IMG/VR virus record: IMGVR_UViG_3300003885_000020
Location: 1 to 37,695 of that record
DNA from: a virus
Direction: 5' to 3' (one strand)
Length of the DNA stretch: 37,695 bases
The stretch's first letter is position 1, and every line of letters begins with the position of its first letter. A model generated the notes under the pieces. The model was not told the origin of the DNA. It did not search any database and saw nothing but the letters and a program-made list of their open reading frames with translations. Of the stretch, positions 2,965 through 27,981 are shown in pieces. The translations under genes and the position numbers were made by a program.

Positions 2965-3540
2965 GTGTATAGTTTGTATGTATCAAAATATTCTCGATGG
3001 ACTAAAGAAGAAGATTTATTACTAAAAAAGATTCACAATTTATATTCAGACAAAAGACTTGCTGAAGTCTTTTCACGAAAAAGAATAGCAATTGTTCACC
3101 GAAGGCAAAGGCTTGGTTTAAAAAAGGATAGACCAGCAAGAAATAAGTTTCAATCAATAGCAACCAAAGGAAAGATCAACAAAGGTAGAGGGAAAGACAG
3201 CAACCATTGGGGGGGTGGAAAGTGGACAACCCCCATTGGTTATGTGTATATATATTGTCCTGCACATCCAAACGCGGTATACGGGAAAAGATACGTTTTG
3301 GAGCATCGTCTAGCAATGGAGCAAAAGGTTGGGCGACTCTTAAAAAAAGATGAGCATGTTCATCATAAAAATGGGAAAAAGGGCGATAATAGAATTGAAA
3401 ATTTAGAACTACTAACCATTAGCGAACACCGTAGTCTGCATACCAAAGGTAAAAATAATCCACTCTACAACGTAAGACGGTATGGAAAAGGTAACCCTAA
3501 CTATAAGCATGGAAAGTATTGTATACAATCTATCAAGTGA
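2965..3540 (+). CDS. HNH homing-type endonuclease with N-terminal DNA-binding helices
   Basis: The protein has 191 residues. Residues about 8-50 (SRWTKEEDLLLKKI, then RKRIAIVHRRQRLGLKK) form a Myb/SANT-like helical DNA-binding unit. Residues about 90-160 form an HNH_3-type nuclease with EHRLAMEQK, the HHKNGKKGDNRIENLELL core and SEHRSLH. Free-standing HNH proteins of this kind cut related phage DNA and spread themselves between genomes. A GTG start is chosen because it sits 5 bases after a good -10; TTG at 2974 is an alternative. The gene interrupts a run of structural genes, which suggests later insertion. Confidence 0.85.
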   Translation: MYSLYVSKYSRWTKEEDLLLKKIHNLYSDKRLAEVFSRKRIAIVHRRQRLGLKKDRPARNKFQSIATKGKINKGRGKDSNHWGGGKWTTPIGYVYIYCPAHPNAVYGKRYVLEHRLAMEQKVGRLLKKDEHVHHKNGKKGDNRIENLELLTISEHRSLHTKGKNNPLYNVRRYGKGNPNYKHGKYCIQSIK

Positions 3541-10329: not shown

Positions 10330-10827
10330 CTAGCCGTGTCCAAAGCTGTGGATTCTGGAATGCTCAGCTTTGCTCAAAACTTGAAGATTTTCAGGCCTAT
10401 TGTCCAGTTTGTTCCCATTTTTGTGGTGAACATCTTCCCCTTGCTTAATGGGTCTACCAATGCTTTGAGAGGCAACAAGTCTGTGTTCAGTAATATAAAG
10501 ACCTTTAGCATTAGGGTGATCTTTTGGGGCATGAATCCACCGATATCCCTCTTTATCAATATATCCTCTAAACTCAGACTTCCTACCTTCATAAAAACAT
10601 TTCTTATTACAATATTTAGCTTTTTTTCTAACGCTAGGCCAATACTCAAATCTTTTTTGACAAGATTTACATTTCTTGATTTTTATCTTTACTCTTGGTC
10701 TTCCAGAACCATGAAATTTATTTCTACAAGCACGAGAACAAAAACTAGACTTAGTTACTTTTTCCGAATGCCATGGCTTGTATTTTTTGTTACACTGATC
10801 ACAAAGACGACTCTGTATAGCAACCAT
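10330..10827 (-). CDS. HNH endonuclease with zinc-finger N-terminus
   Basis: On the minus strand this is a 165-residue protein. The N-terminal half has two Cys pairs of treble-clef or FCS-like type (CDQCNKKY...FCSRACRNK and CKSCQKRF...YCNKKCFY). The C-terminal half is an HNH_3 nuclease: EHRLVASQSIGRPIK, HHKNGNKLDNRPENLQVL, AEHSRIH. The start is taken as the ATG at 10827, 5 bases after a TATAAT, rather than the TTG at 10833. It sits opposite to the surrounding lysis genes and separates them, as expected for a mobile free-standing endonuclease. A + strand frame over the same bases is its shadow. Confidence 0.85.
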   Translation of the reverse strand: MVAIQSRLCDQCNKKYKPWHSEKVTKSSFCSRACRNKFHGSGRPRVKIKIKKCKSCQKRFEYWPSVRKKAKYCNKKCFYEGRKSEFRGYIDKEGYRWIHAPKDHPNAKGLYITEHRLVASQSIGRPIKQGEDVHHKNGNKLDNRPENLQVLSKAEHSRIHSFGHG

Positions 10828-10832
10828 AATCA

Positions 10833-10841
10833 ATTATAGCA
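10833..10841 (-). promoter_or_regulatory. Extended -10 promoter for the minus HNH gene
   Basis: On the minus strand TGC-TATAAT lies 5 bases before the ATG of the HNH gene, giving a leaderless message. The TG of the extended element overlaps the ATG of the endolysin gene on the other strand (10841), so the insertion brought or reused a promoter at the very start of that gene. Confidence 0.6.
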
Positions 10842-21016: not shown

Positions 21017-21179
21017 AGAGGAGATAAGGTTCTGGTTACCACTAATGGTTTATTTAGCCTTGGTGATTATTTCTGTCCTGTGGGCAACAACTGTACTTGA
21101 TAGTCAAATACAAGGATGTGGAGGATTAGCTAAATGTATGGGAAACTTTGTAAAAGAATTTAACCAAGCTAAAAAATGA
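21006..21179 (+). CDS. Start cassette fused to a membrane protein
   Basis: This 57-residue protein begins MKSKEEIRFW. One transmembrane span (residues 10-29, LPLMVYLALVIISVLWATTV) and a small domain with two Cys (CGGLAKC) that would lie outside and could form a disulfide follow. It ends FNQAKK. The cassette is thus joined to a membrane protein unlike its neighbours, so the conserved part is the start and not a shared fold. It may be a superinfection or lysis-control peptide (inference). Confidence 0.55.
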   Translation: MKSKEEIRFWLPLMVYLALVIISVLWATTVLDSQIQGCGGLAKCMGNFVKEFNQAKK

Positions 21180-22015
21180 AAAATAAAAAGATATACCTAA
21201 AATTTGATGGAGAGTGGAAAGCTGTAATCTATGGTAGAAAAGGGTTTGAAAAGCTTTTAGAAGAAAGACGTATCAAGATTGGATACGAGGCAGAGATTGG
21301 ATACGAGGCAAAGATTGGAGATGGGGCAAAGATTGGATACGAGGCAGAGATTGGAGACTGGGCAAAGATTGGATACAGGGCAGAGATTGGATACAAGGCA
21401 GAGATTGGATACAAGGCAGAGATTGGAGACTGGGCAAAGATTGGATACGAGGCAGAGATTGGATACAAGGCAGAGATTGGAGACGAGGCAGAGATTGGAT
21501 ACGGGGCAGAGATTGGAGACTGGGCAAAGATTGGAGACGAGGCAGAGATTGGATACGGGGCAGAGATTGGAGACTGGGCAAAGATTGGATACGGGGCAGA
21601 GATTGGAGACTGGGCAAAGATTGGATACGGGGCAGAGATTGGAGACTGGGCAGAGATAACAAATGAAATAAACAAAACTCCCTTTTCACCACTCTATGTA
21701 AAAACCACGGTAGGAGTAATTATGCAGAATAAAAAAGGTATTTTTTATAAATCCGTAAAGCCTGATTTGACAGATTTTCATACAGGAGAATACCAATACA
21801 CAATGGGGAAGGGTGATAGAATAAAACTTAAAAGAAACCAAGAAATTGACTGTGGTGAAGGTTGGCATTGGACATCTTATGACAGAGCTGTTGTTTTTGC
21901 AGAAAAAAAACCTCACAAAATAATTTCCGCTGAGATTGAAATGAAAGATATTTTGTCAGTTTACAACAAGGTGAGGGTTAAAAGGTTTAAGAATGTTCAG
22001 ATAATAGAACTATGA
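21176..22015 (+). CDS. Hexapeptide-repeat beta-helix protein with phage C-terminal domain
   Basis: The 279-residue protein starts with MKNKKIYLKFDGEWKAV. Residues about 35-160 are 21 repeats of IG[YD]xA[EK], the pattern of a left-handed beta helix as in hexapeptide transferases and carbonic anhydrases. No catalytic loop or His cluster is seen. The C-terminal domain (170-279) reads KKGIFYKSVKPDLTDFHTG, CGEGWHWTSYDRAVVFAE, KIISAEIEMKDILSV and KVRVKRFKNVQIIEL. This is a small beta domain often found after repeat regions in phage proteins. The repeat acts as a rigid rod; the role is unknown. Confidence 0.7.
   Translation: MKNKKIYLKFDGEWKAVIYGRKGFEKLLEERRIKIGYEAEIGYEAKIGDGAKIGYEAEIGDWAKIGYRAEIGYKAEIGYKAEIGDWAKIGYEAEIGYKAEIGDEAEIGYGAEIGDWAKIGDEAEIGYGAEIGDWAKIGYGAEIGDWAKIGYGAEIGDWAEITNEINKTPFSPLYVKTTVGVIMQNKKGIFYKSVKPDLTDFHTGEYQYTMGKGDRIKLKRNQEIDCGEGWHWTSYDRAVVFAEKKPHKIISAEIEMKDILSVYNKVRVKRFKNVQIIEL
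21278..21655 (+). repeat. 18-bp tandem array, 21 units
   Basis: Units of 18 bases, ATTGGA[TG]AC followed by a variable [GA]AGG-type triplet and GCA[GA]AG, run without interruption and match the hexapeptide codons. Several longer 36- and 54-base combinations recur, showing recent duplications. All six frames are open through most of it, which produces false reverse-strand frames. Confidence 0.9.
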
Positions 22016-22343: not shown

Positions 22344-22362
22344 ATAAGCATTGGGGATTTCC

Positions 22363-22659
22363 ATGGATAAAAAAATCCAATACAGACCAGTTAGAGGCTT
22401 CATTCTAGCTATTCCCAGTGGTGATGAAACATCTTCTTCTTTTACAATAAGCGACTCCAATAAGACTCTCAACAAGGCTCAATGTATATCTGTGGGTGAG
22501 GATACATTCTTCGACCATATAGATAAAGTATTCCCTTGTCCCGTTAAGGTAGGAGATATTTTTTTGCACAGTACGATAGGACATGAGAATATCCGGATAG
22601 ACGGTAAGAGTTATATCTTAATACCGTTTGATAGGGTGTTAGCGGTGAAGGTGAAATAG
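22363..22659 (+). CDS. groES: Phage GroES (Cpn10) co-chaperonin
   Basis: From the ATG at 22363 this is a 98-residue protein; the TTG at 22351 is in frame but less likely. It has the Cpn10 fold signature: YRPVRGFILAIPSGDETSS, a flexible mobile loop with the hydrophobic FTI, then CISVGEDTF, CPVKVGDIFLHSTIGHENIRI, and YILIPFDRVLAV at the end. GroES caps the GroEL ring during folding. It directly precedes a full-length GroEL, so phage capsid or other proteins are probably folded by a phage-encoded complete system. Confidence 0.85.
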   Translation: MDKKIQYRPVRGFILAIPSGDETSSSFTISDSNKTLNKAQCISVGEDTFFDHIDKVFPCPVKVGDIFLHSTIGHENIRIDGKSYILIPFDRVLAVKVK

Positions 22660-22663
22660 TGAT

Positions 22664-22696
22664 ATGAAAAATAAAATAACCATAATAAGAATATGA
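22664..22696 (+). CDS. Minigene with start cassette before groEL (10 aa)
   Basis: ATGAAAAATAAA opens MKNKITIIRI and its TGA overlaps the ATG of groEL. This places the cassette as a translational lead for the chaperonin. A 10-residue product is unlikely to act itself. Confidence 0.4.
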   Translation: MKNKITIIRI

Positions 22697-24264
22697 AATA
22701 CTCACAAGAAATATACAAAGATGAGGCACAGGATAAACTACTAAAGGGTGCTAAACGTGTTTATGACGGAGTATCTACTACTCTCGGAATACAGGGCAGA
22801 AACGTAATTATCCACAAGAACCACAAGACTAAGACTATCCATGACGGAGTTAAAACTGCTATGGAGATACTACCTAAAGACCCATTTGAGGCAGCAGGCG
22901 CAAATATACTAAAACAAGCAGGAGAGAGAACGGCTGATACAGTGGGTGACGGTACTACAGTTTCTACTGTACTAGGTTATTGGATAGCTAAAAGTGCATT
23001 AAAGATTGTAAGAGCTGGTGTAAATCCTATGAAATTGAGGTTCTCACTGGAGAAGGGTAGAGATCTACTTGTGGATAAAATCCAAGAGTTATCATCACCC
23101 ATTACAAGCAAGAGTCAGAAGATTGATATAGCTACAATATCCGCTCAAGAGGAGAACATGGGGAGGTTGATAGGAGAGACTTATCACAAGGCTGGTACCG
23201 GTGCTGTAATTGTAGCTGAACAGATAAACTCACCTGATACTTATGTTGAACATCAAGAGGGAATGCAAATAGACTCAGGATACAAAGTAGAACACTTTGT
23301 AACCAACAAAGAGAAGCAGGTAGCTACAGTAGTAAACGCTGTAGTGTTTGTTACAAACTACACGCTCAATAATATCTATGATATCCAACCATTATTCAAG
23401 AATGTGATAGAGGATAACAAGAAACTAAATATAGTTGTATTTGCTCAAGACATACAGGGAAATGTACTAGCAACTCTCGTTAATAATAAGATGAAAGGGA
23501 CACTTGCAACACTTGCAGTTAAGGCTCCTACTTTTCAGTCAGACAAATATCTACAAGACATTGCGATAGTTGTGGGTGCTACGTTTGTAAGCAAGGATAC
23601 AGGTATGGACTTGAAAGAGTTGACGCTCGAAGATATGGGATTTGCTGAAAGGATAACATCAAGTAAGCATGTAACAACTATTGTTGGTGGTGCAGGTAAG
23701 AAAAAAGACATAGAAGACAGGGTTACAGCACTTCGGAAGATGAAGGAGCAAGAGTCGAACGCATTTGATAGAGTGAAACTGGACGAGAGAATAGCAAAGT
23801 TAACAGGTGGTGTATTTACGATAAAGGCAGGAGGTTATACCGACGCTGAGGCAGAGGATAGATATGAAAAAGCAGATGATTCTATAAAAGCTACTAGAGC
23901 TGCAATAGAGGGTGGAGTTGTCCCCGGTGGTGAGGTTGTTTACCTAGAGGCAAGGAAAGTATTGGTAGGAGAAACTGAGATGGAAGAATACGCATATAGG
24001 ATACTGTATGAGGCACTAGAGCAACCGTTTAATAAGTTGGTAACAAACGCAGGGCTAAATCCAGGTAGATTACATGAAAAACTAGAGAATAAGAAGTTTG
24101 GTACAGGAGTGGATTTGACAGATGAGAAGATAAAAGACCTAACAAAGGCAGGGATAATAGATCCTGCCATGGTAGCAACAGAGTCTATCAAGAACGCTGT
24201 ATCAGTTGCAGTTGCACTAATAACAGCAGGTGGAGTGGTTGTTGAGAAGGAGGATGAGAAATGA
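22693..24264 (+). CDS. groEL: Phage GroEL (Cpn60) chaperonin
   Basis: At 523 residues it is slightly shorter than the usual 540-548. Nucleotide site residues are kept: VSTTLGIQGRNV near 28-38 (the usual GPKGRNV has changed), DGV at 51, GDGTT at 85-89, KADDSIKATRAAIEGG with the hydrolysis Asp, and GIIDPAMV near the end. The apical domain is present and recognisable. The C-terminal Gly-Gly-Met tail is missing; it ends VVEKEDEK. It is coupled to a minigene at its start and to a small gene at its end. It should work with the GroES encoded just upstream. Confidence 0.93.
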   Translation: MKYSQEIYKDEAQDKLLKGAKRVYDGVSTTLGIQGRNVIIHKNHKTKTIHDGVKTAMEILPKDPFEAAGANILKQAGERTADTVGDGTTVSTVLGYWIAKSALKIVRAGVNPMKLRFSLEKGRDLLVDKIQELSSPITSKSQKIDIATISAQEENMGRLIGETYHKAGTGAVIVAEQINSPDTYVEHQEGMQIDSGYKVEHFVTNKEKQVATVVNAVVFVTNYTLNNIYDIQPLFKNVIEDNKKLNIVVFAQDIQGNVLATLVNNKMKGTLATLAVKAPTFQSDKYLQDIAIVVGATFVSKDTGMDLKELTLEDMGFAERITSSKHVTTIVGGAGKKKDIEDRVTALRKMKEQESNAFDRVKLDERIAKLTGGVFTIKAGGYTDAEAEDRYEKADDSIKATRAAIEGGVVPGGEVVYLEARKVLVGETEMEEYAYRILYEALEQPFNKLVTNAGLNPGRLHEKLENKKFGTGVDLTDEKIKDLTKAGIIDPAMVATESIKNAVSVAVALITAGGVVVEKEDEK

Positions 24265-25569: not shown

Positions 25570-26010
25570 ATGGCAAAAGACTACAAGAAACTAACAGAAC
25601 TTCACGGATGGGATAAAAACCCTCGTAGTATAAAGGGTAAGGACTTCGACAGGCTAAAGAAACAAATACAAAAACTAGGTCAGTACAAACCACTACTGAT
25701 TACAAAGGATAATGAGGTTATTGGTGGCAACATGAGACTAAAGGCATATAAAGAACTTGGTATAAATGAAGTCTGGGTAAGCGTTGTAGATCCCAAAGAC
25801 GATAATGAAAAGCTAGAGTATGCACTAAGCGATAACGATAGAGCAGGTTTTTATGATAGCGACTTACTAGCTAACCTTGTATCTGGGACAAGGGAGATGG
25901 TGGTGTGGGGGCAATGTACCAACAGTGTTATGAGATGGTATGGTTTCATGCCAATTCACCAATCGCAACAAAAACAATGGGAAAGACAAAATCAGGAGAA
26001 AGAATTATAA
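25570..26010 (+). CDS. ParB-like domain, remnant of a ParB-methyltransferase
   Basis: The frame has 146 codons. Residues 1-103 form a ParB/sulfiredoxin-like domain: WDKNPRSIKGKDFDRLKKQI, KPLLITKDNEVIGGNMRLKAYKELG, and YALSDNDRAGFYDSDLLANL. In intact homologues this domain leads into a DNA N6-adenine/N4-cytosine methyltransferase. Here residues 104-146 are an out-of-frame reading of the methyltransferase, so the protein probably lost its enzyme part. A purine-rich AAGGAAGGA lies 11 bases upstream. It may still bind DNA near the packaging genes. Confidence 0.7.
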   Translation: MAKDYKKLTELHGWDKNPRSIKGKDFDRLKKQIQKLGQYKPLLITKDNEVIGGNMRLKAYKELGINEVWVSVVDPKDDNEKLEYALSDNDRAGFYDSDLLANLVSGTREMVVWGQCTNSVMRWYGFMPIHQSQQKQWERQNQEKEL

Positions 26011-26276
26011 GTGGGAAACCTAATATATGGAGGCATCTCAGGGTGTCAGGAGATAGAAAGCACAACGCACAAAAGCCAACACAAATGATAGTGGACGCTA
26101 TTGGCAACTCAAGTGACACAGGTGATATTGTCCTAGACCTATTCGGTGGCTCAGGCTCTACACTAATAGCTTGTGAGCAAACAGACCGTACTTGTTATAT
26201 GATGGAGATTGACCCCAAATACTGTGACGTTATACGCAAAAGATATGAAAACTATAAAAAAGAAACAGTAAAATAA
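25875..26276 (+). pseudogene. C-terminal half of a DNA methyltransferase, DPPY part deleted
   Basis: In the frame beginning after the TAA at 25872-25874 the sequence reads CIWDKGDGGVGAMYQQCYEM, then KPTQMIVDAIGNSSDTGDIVLDLFGGSGSTLIAC, and EIDPKYCDVIRKR. This is the SAM-binding C-terminal half of the N6_N4 methyltransferase family. The catalytic DPP[YW] half is absent and the join to the ParB domain is out of frame. An in-frame GTG at 25905 could start a 123-residue product. It is not expected to methylate DNA. Confidence 0.7.
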
Positions 26277-26281
26277 CAGCA

Positions 26282-26575
26282 ATGAGAAAAGCAACACCAG
26301 GATCATACAAACCAGGTCAATCAGGTAACCTTAAAGGACGACCCAAAAAGGGACACTCTATCACGGAAACTATTCGTGAGATGATGGATGAACAGCCTGA
26401 GATAAAGAAGGCCCTAGGCCAGAAGATATTAAAAATGGCGATGGATGGTGATATTACAGCCATGAAAACTATCTGGAACTACCTAGATGGTATGCCACAA
26501 CAGAATACAGACATAACAACTTTAGGTGAAAAGATAGGCATGATATTACACTCACCAGAAAAAAATGAAAAGTGA
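26282..26575 (+). CDS. DUF5681-like protein, candidate small terminase
   Basis: The protein has 97 residues. SYKPGQSGNLKGRPKKG is the GQSGNPxGRPKG motif of the DUF5681 family, a small basic domain often placed just before large terminase genes. A helical part (TETIREMMDEQPEIKKALGQKILKMAMDGDITAMKTIWNYLDG) follows. It overlaps the terminase gene by 4 bases (GTGA). It probably recognises phage DNA in packaging, by position. Confidence 0.75.
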   Translation: MRKATPGSYKPGQSGNLKGRPKKGHSITETIREMMDEQPEIKKALGQKILKMAMDGDITAMKTIWNYLDGMPQQNTDITTLGEKIGMILHSPEKNEK

Positions 26576-27981
26576 ATACACACTGGATACCACACAAGAA
26601 ACAAGAGGAAGCTCTAAAGCGGAGAGAGTTTGAGATACTTTTCGGTGGGGCTCGTGGAGGAGGAAAAACAGATGCGGGATTAGTCTTTCTTGTAGGTGAG
26701 AAACTTCAAGGTGGTAAATGGATATGGGAACATCCAGACTACAGAGCTCTAGTTATCAGACGAAATGCAGATGACTTATCAGATTGGATTGACAGAGCTG
26801 GTAAGATGTATGGGTTACTAGGCGTGTCTATCGCCTATAGACCAGCAATCATTCGGTTCAACTCGGGTGCAGTTATTAGAACAGGTCACTTGAAAGATGC
26901 ACAGGCTTATACTAAATATCAAGGTCATGAATATCATAGACTACTAATAGAGGAGTTGACACAGATACCAGAGGAGAAGCGATACCTTCAGTTAATATCC
27001 TCCTGCAGGTCAACAATTCCAGAGATACGACCACAGGTGTTCTCAACCACTAATCCAGGCAATCTAGGTCACGCCTGGGTAAAGGATAGATTTGTAACCC
27101 CGTCAACTCCTGGCAAACCCTTCATGGACAAAACAAGTAAGCGCAAAAGGATATTCATAAAGTCACTGATAGATGATAATCCTACACTTATGAAGAATGA
27201 CCCAGAGTATGTTGGTTTTCTAGACTCACTAAAAGATACCGATAAAGAACTATGGAAAGCGTGGAGGATGGGAGACTGGGAAACATTTGCAGGTCAGTTT
27301 TTCAGAGAGATATCAGATTTACATTTCACACCACCATTTATACCTAGGGATGACATGACTAAAATGTCAGGTTCAGATTGGGGATATAGTCCTAGACCGT
27401 TTGTGTTTGTTTGCGCAGCTATGGAGAAGGTGACCTATATAGAACCCAGTACGCTAGAGGAGAAAACATTTAACAGAATATGGGTGTATAAGGAGATAGC
27501 GGGTACAAAAAAGAACCCTCAAGAATGGGCTAGGATAATTAGAGAGTCAGTTGATCTAGATCAATTCGAGTGGCACAGGGGTGATCCGTCTATGAACATC
27601 AAACAGTCAGACGGTGCAAGAAGTATATTAGATCAATTTAGAGAAGAGGGAATCACAATACTACCTGCTAATAACGACAGGGTGAACGGTTGGCAGGCAG
27701 TAAGAAACTGGCTAACAATTGCACCTGATGGTTTACCATATCTGATAATTAGTGATACATGTGTAGGGTTAAAGAAGAACTTGCCACTACTGATATATGA
27801 CGAGAAGAACAAGAACGATTTAGACACGCTCGGTCCTGACGATGAAGCTGATGGGTTGAGATATATGCTTATTCACACACCGTGGATAGATGCCAAAGCA
27901 GGGTCTGTACACAGACCCAAAAGGAAAACAAACGATATTAAAAAACCTATTGCATATGTCTCTCTTGATAAGTGGAAATAG
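26572..27981 (+). CDS. terL: Terminase large subunit
   Basis: The protein has 469 residues. The packaging ATPase domain has a Walker A, GGARGGGKT (25-33), a Walker B LLIEE (124-128), and STTNPG (158-163). The C-terminal nuclease has an Asp in GSDWGY (D269), a second acid in HRGDPSM and a third in DEADGLRYML. It cuts concatemers and pumps DNA into the prohead through the portal encoded 330 bases downstream. The GTG start overlaps the stop of the small protein before it; an ATG 7 bases earlier is in another frame. Confidence 0.93.
   Translation: MNTHWIPHKKQEEALKRREFEILFGGARGGGKTDAGLVFLVGEKLQGGKWIWEHPDYRALVIRRNADDLSDWIDRAGKMYGLLGVSIAYRPAIIRFNSGAVIRTGHLKDAQAYTKYQGHEYHRLLIEELTQIPEEKRYLQLISSCRSTIPEIRPQVFSTTNPGNLGHAWVKDRFVTPSTPGKPFMDKTSKRKRIFIKSLIDDNPTLMKNDPEYVGFLDSLKDTDKELWKAWRMGDWETFAGQFFREISDLHFTPPFIPRDDMTKMSGSDWGYSPRPFVFVCAAMEKVTYIEPSTLEEKTFNRIWVYKEIAGTKKNPQEWARIIRESVDLDQFEWHRGDPSMNIKQSDGARSILDQFREEGITILPANNDRVNGWQAVRNWLTIAPDGLPYLIISDTCVGLKKNLPLLIYDEKNKNDLDTLGPDDEADGLRYMLIHTPWIDAKAGSVHRPKRKTNDIKKPIAYVSLDKWK

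Follow-up and report, generated by a model that had tools for sequence, protein, structure and literature searches.

The gene at 25570–26276 of the window, by which we mean the whole stretch of DNA analysed (a 37,695-base record, the record of a single virus), most likely represents an orphan methyltransferase that was disrupted recently. It is probably the decayed copy of a phage orphan N6/N4 DNA methyltransferase fused to a ParB-like domain, derived from an intact mosaic gene by loss of about 450 bp. The case resembles the usual decay of a gene more than a new system. The C-terminal half of the gene would now be untranslated or inert, and no methylation would be expected from it.

Architecture of the gene

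The features of the gene and of its downstream neighbours are given below, where L numbers denote loci of the survey of relatives described in the next section.

25570–25878, plus strand: ParB/Srx-like N-terminal domain, residues 1–103, frame 1 (phrog_620, phrog_498; AlphaFold2 model)
25873–25883, plus strand: junction region, AACCTTGTATC in the window, with the two halves out of register
25879–26010, plus strand: 43-residue out-of-frame tail and stop of the ParB reading frame, overlapping the methyltransferase remnant
25878–26132, plus strand: methyltransferase remnant, variable middle region of the CIWDKG type, frame 0 (amino acid identity to L002/L003)
26133–26276, plus strand: methyltransferase remnant with DLFGGSGS motif, C-terminus and stop, frame 0 (PF01555)
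26282–26575, plus strand: small-terminase-like gene, named from its position and relatives (same order in L020, L022, L025, L028, and L054)
26572–27981, plus strand: terminase large subunit (phrog_979, E 4.6e-33)

The ParB reading frame (25570–26010, plus strand) encodes 146 aa, of which residues 1–103 form the ParB domain and the last 43 are out of frame. Among the PHROG profiles phrog_620 was matched best by the ParB half (E 2.5e-24) and phrog_498 was also matched (E 8.1e-22), while the match to PF02195 (19.2 bits, E 0.0013) lies under the Pfam cut-off of 26.3 bits. Most PHROG matches to this reading frame stop at residue 88–114, with phrog_940 stretched to residue 127. In frame 0 a stop codon at 25872–25874 is followed by an open stretch (25875–26273) encoding CIWDKG and the residues after it, and the piece from 25878 to 26273 is the C-terminal part of an N6/N4 DNA methyltransferase, matching columns 132–220 of the 221 columns of N6_N4_Mtase (PF01555, E 1.8e-18). 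Two profiles are matched by both pieces, i.e., phrog_498 at columns 36–144 (ParB) and 301–426 (C-half), and PADLOC PDLC03229 (436 columns) at columns 18–117 (E 1.9e-9) and 285–403 (E 9.2e-27). Columns 118–284 of PDLC03229, which include the catalytic motif, are absent from the window gene, and intact relatives span the profile unbroken (columns 16–405 in L021 and 8–410 in L003). The ParB-like N-terminal domain and the C-terminal part with DLFGGSGS, which we take to be the SAM-binding motif, are thus both present, but in frames 1 and 0 and not in a single uninterrupted reading frame. These matches confirm the original prediction that a ParB domain runs directly into the C-half of a methyltransferase in another frame. 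As the halves are out of register no fused protein can result.

In PF01555 methyltransferases of the ParB-fused kind the catalytic motif comes first and the SAM motif last, and the DPP[YFW] segment is required for methylation in methyltransferases of the PF01555 type. The catalytic [DNS]PP[YFW] motif IV is absent from both halves of the window gene. In a tblastn search of the window with the middle parts of L021, L002, and L028 the sole significant match was the retained C-half. The DPP[YW] catalytic half, which had been predicted to be cut out, is accordingly missing at the gene and was not found by this search elsewhere in the window. Since the DPP[YFW] segment is absent, methylation by any product of the window gene is impossible. 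No other methyltransferase was detected by Pfam among 20 further proteins scanned, a subset of those of the window. In 10 aligned relatives of the CIWDKG type (L002, L003, L005, L006, L007, L008, L009, L010, L013, and L014) the two points that meet at the junction are 146–156 residues apart, so the expectation of several hundred bases between them was right.

Full-length genes in related loci

Scans of viral collections yielded 204 loci (L002–L205), and profiles of the ParB, middle and C-terminal parts were built from 27 sequences of those loci, so that the matches are partly self-matches. One of the contributing scans supplied the best 80 of at least 598 matches and remoter relatives lie beyond its scope. 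At least one of the three profiles matched 143 of the 204 loci. All three parts were found in one reading frame in 61 loci (60 and L150), each of them with [DNS]PP[YFWCH] between the ParB and C-terminal parts. The gene is split by an HNH gene in L016 and L025 and within the linker in L027, with the motif kept in all three. A further 69 loci had a ParB match alone, a count that takes in other fusions (e.g., L026) and possibly cut genes. The 10 remaining loci have partial or doubled matches, among them three with ParB twice in separate reading frames, L031 with ParB twice in one, L008 and L015 without ParB, L052 and L168 without the C-terminal part, and L205 with a C-terminal match alone; L041 has a separate methyltransferase gene upstream. 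A ParB part adjoining a C-terminal part without the middle was seen in none of the 143 profile-matched loci, and the short form is for this reason probably derived.

A search of the phage collection with the joined query returned 512 records, and among the 60 matches listed all 13 with a coverage of at least 80% span 1098–1443 bases. This is the length of an intact gene, compared to about 700 for the short form. Apparent unbroken junction matches in the phage records H39, H66, and H50 turned out to be full-length genes with DPPY, where the alignment had run into the middle segment. In the genome collection the CIWDKG-type half gave one weak match over 43 residues, and the portal protein, used as an extra marker, revealed no close relatives. 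Among the literature matches listed, no paper deals with decay of this gene type as judged by titles and the first part of abstracts.

The stop codon of the remnant lies 5 bases upstream of the small-terminase-like gene. A full-length gene is located directly before a TerS match (52–64%) in L020, L022, L028, and L054, the HNH-split gene precedes a TerS match of 73% in L025, and in L055 and L116 a full gene is followed by a TerL match. Because relatives carry the full gene at this pre-terminase place, it is likely the ancestral state where the gene is present there, many phages being without it at that place or unjudgeable. Of 65 loci found by their terminase only L054, L055, and L116 show similarity to either half of the gene or to the L021 enzyme, and many of the others start close to the terminase or represent more distant phages. 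The comparison with relatives that had been proposed as a check thus found the full-length gene at the same position in several of them, and the short form was not seen in the other loci and records compared. The best near-full-length terminase matches are 56–57%, and very near records may be missing from the collection.

Compared to named phages the terminase (26572–27981) is less than 60% identical to all (636 records), with a best value of 40% among the 15 listed, and a TM7 (Saccharibacteria) phage (35%) is found among the terminase relatives listed. Further upstream a GroES-like (Cpn10) gene lies beside a GroEL-like (Cpn60) gene (22351–24264), and GroEL relatives are also located upstream of the terminase genes in L055, L073, and L115. 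A 279-aa protein rich in hexapeptide repeats (PF00132) is encoded at 21176–22015, with long overlapping open frames over the repeat in other reading frames.

Probable mosaic ancestry of the two halves

The ParB half is nearest to L021 (84%) and L022 (82%), the values for these two ranging from 60 to 91% by segment. For the 80 codons after the junction, amino acid identity by segment is 64–96% to L002/L003 and 8–32% to L021, and 42–96% when ten CIWDKG-type relatives are considered. As the two halves have different nearest relatives, a feature absent from the original prediction, an intact mosaic parent gene is probable. The last part of the remnant (26133–26276) is conserved in all relatives; its nearest DNA is found in L021 (85% over 129 bases) and L016 (83% over 115 bases). 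At the protein level residues 80–106 of the C-half are nearest to L018 and L022 (88%) and residues 106–132 to L021 (77%), and the C-terminal end differs from L021 at 4, 2, and 13 first, second and third codon positions, respectively, over 41 codons. The likeness of the last codons to L021 is not very distinctive, with L016 almost as close and this part conserved in all relatives, and this slightly lowers the odds of the proposed decay. The simplest history would be that an L021-like gene acquired a different recognition region before about 450 bp were deleted, an order of events that we infer from the sequences.

It is also conceivable that two genes were joined directly, i.e., that an L021-like ParB gene recombined at unequal positions with a methyltransferase gene of the CIWDKG type. 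The change of nearest relative from L021/L022 to L002/L003 at the junction agrees with such an event, but the last approximately 43 codons are nearer to L021/L016 DNA than to L002/L003, and a second exchange would be needed. This argument is weakened by the conservation of the last part in all relatives; even so we consider direct joining unlikely.

In L026 (2959–4080) a comparable ParB domain (71%) is joined to a segment carrying SSPPCPT, a motif typical of cytosine-5 methyltransferases, and the ParB part may here have been combined with another methyltransferase class.

The junction and a possible deletion mechanism

Nucleotide similarity to the ParB-half relatives L021, L022, L024, and L028 stops at 25874–25878 (25870 for L023 and 25887 for L025), and similarity to CIWDKG-type relatives in most cases begins at 25878, with an earlier start at 25873 in L005–L007. 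The switch in similarity at 25873–25883 agrees well with the junction that had been placed at about 25872–25880, between DLLANL and CIWDKG. At the ParB-side endpoint Asn-Leu is encoded in the five ParB-half relatives compared, with Glu-Leu in L054 and Asn-Met in L026, and in all 19 reading frames with CIWDKG, several of which are near-identical copies, the motif follows directly on Asn-Leu (15) or Asn-Met (4). The window retains one such codon pair. The presence of Asn-Leu at both endpoints in the closest relatives suggests a short-homology deletion, in which about 450 bp between short similar stretches (Asn-Leu codons on either side) would have been lost from an intact mosaic gene. As no close intact parent was found, the precise deletion with its length, and likewise the parental repeat, are reconstructed from the relatives. 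Genes for an ERF-type annealing protein and a YqaJ-type recombinase are found in the same genome. ERF acts like Red-beta or RecT, and it is tempting to speculate that the phage's own ERF-type protein aided the deletion. For annealing systems of phages, recombination between diverged genes has been reported, with RecET cited for very short stretches of 5–13 bp (PMC2327257).

The junction could instead be an artefact, such as a chimeric read, an amplification or library product or a minority variant in the consensus, in which case the phage has the full gene. The short form is represented by a single virus record, and neither the exact junction sequence nor a degenerate form of it gave a match in the viral collection, from which records close to the window may be absent. 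On the other hand the endpoints, judged from the relatives, share just a few bases. This is too short for the usual assembly-graph misjoin. No exact repeat of more than 12 bases was found between the junction region and the rest of the window, a test that covers the sequence present and not the lost parental endpoints. Nor was any other frame break seen in the window: frame-changing collinear matches of reading frames from the relatives' loci (plus strand, within 1500 bases) amounted to 49 pairs at the methyltransferase gene and 0 elsewhere, with homologues present in just 15 one-kb bins of the window. Taken together, we find an artefact rather improbable. A mixed population with and without the full gene, or selection against the enzyme, both suggested originally, is conceivable.

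Age of the probable loss and the possible ParB product

There is no stop in the 132 codons of the C-half. Under random substitution such a stretch would stay free of stops with a probability of about 0.55 at 0.03 substitutions per site and 0.07 at 0.15, which is hence a weak bound. The differences in the C-half are mostly at third codon positions (20/19/63 by position relative to L002 and 21/20/62 relative to L003), which suggests a gene under constraint for most of its history and would fit a recent loss, as would the stop-free C-half. For the claim that methylation was lost recently, the loss itself is supported by the full-length relatives and the short form being unseen in them, and the recency follows indirectly from the stop-free C-half and the third-position differences.

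An AlphaFold2 model of the ParB half (mean pLDDT 81.3, 12 sequences in the alignment) has CTP-bound ParB N-domains as its best PDB matches (Foldseek E 2.2e-6, TM 0.76 on the query). By this prediction the core fold of the ParB domain is complete, which makes a ParB-only product possible, and a 146-residue ParB-only protein may still be made. The claim that the ParB domain was kept in frame therefore holds for the core, according to the model, but not for the product, which ends in 43 out-of-frame residues and has lost approximately 15–24 still-similar residues. The undamaged core counts against decay, which in its pure form has no need of it.

The short gene might thus work as a solo ParB-type protein, nucleotide-binding and perhaps DNA-nicking, the methyltransferase having been discarded under selection. 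ParB relatives in which no methyltransferase part was detected are common (the 69 loci with ParB alone, other fusions and possibly cut genes included), and the model points in the same direction. The ParB domain of a Bacillus cereus ParB-methylase is reported to nick DNA (PMC5512222), and by analogy a nicking-type role could in principle be kept by the 146-residue product. However, the 43-residue tail has replaced residues similar to L021 up to its residue 118–127, and these are kept in five relatives that are themselves without a methyltransferase (L029, L030, L031, L033, and L039). No second phage with the short form was seen, and with the C-half still open little time may have passed. A selected solo protein is in our view improbable.

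HNH insertions

HNH endonuclease reading frames are located inside the ParB-methyltransferase gene at 1604–2095 in L016 and 3537–4139 in L025 (PF01844/PF14279). The insertion place is identical in the two, just before SH[YF]LMCGDST and within the segment missing from the window, and the flanking gene pieces carry CPKC- and C-x-C-G-like cysteines. It is possibly a homing site or an intron; an Rfam search up to E 0.5 was negative for L016, L025, and L027, as was one at the gathering score for the window. The deletion in the window could then be the scar of a homing endonuclease cut inside the methyltransferase gene, where repair of a cut at the HNH site by short-homology annealing would have removed the catalytic part together with the cut site. 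If true, the endonuclease could no longer cut the gene, and what is left would be a ParB-only protein that is possibly still active, but we regard this origin of the deletion as very doubtful.

A working two-part enzyme, made by programmed frameshifting or by translating the C-half separately, would be compatible with both frames being open and overlapping, but can practically be dismissed, as the search of the window did not find the catalytic DPP[YFW] segment and no such product could methylate.

The window also has two free-standing HNH_3 endonuclease genes, at 2965–3540 (plus strand) and 10330–10833 (minus strand), the latter between plus-strand genes.

Comparison with known systems

As a probable case of decay the gene is a clear example of the loss of an orphan methyltransferase in a phage, with exchanged recognition regions among its relatives. 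An automatic annotation could report a ParB gene and a methyltransferase at this locus, and either name would be misleading. With the ParB-fused phage N6/N4 DNA methyltransferases (phrog_498; PDLC03229, "Type II methyltransferase") it shares both halves, their order and the position near the terminase, but differs from them in that columns 118–284 of PDLC03229 with the catalytic motif are gone and the halves are out of frame. The ParB half resembles the solo phage ParB-like proteins (phrog_620, its best match, and others). Relatives without the methyltransferase keep similar residues beyond the core, whereas the window product ends in an out-of-frame tail. Phage mosaicism generated by annealing recombinases, as described in PMC2327257, is similar with respect to the ERF-type protein present and the short stretches at the joint, and may provide the mechanism here. 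Finally, Bce_0392 of Bacillus cereus likewise combines a ParB domain with an adenine methylase. Nicking of DNA is reported for the ParB domain of that protein (PMC5512222), while in the window gene the methylase part is broken.
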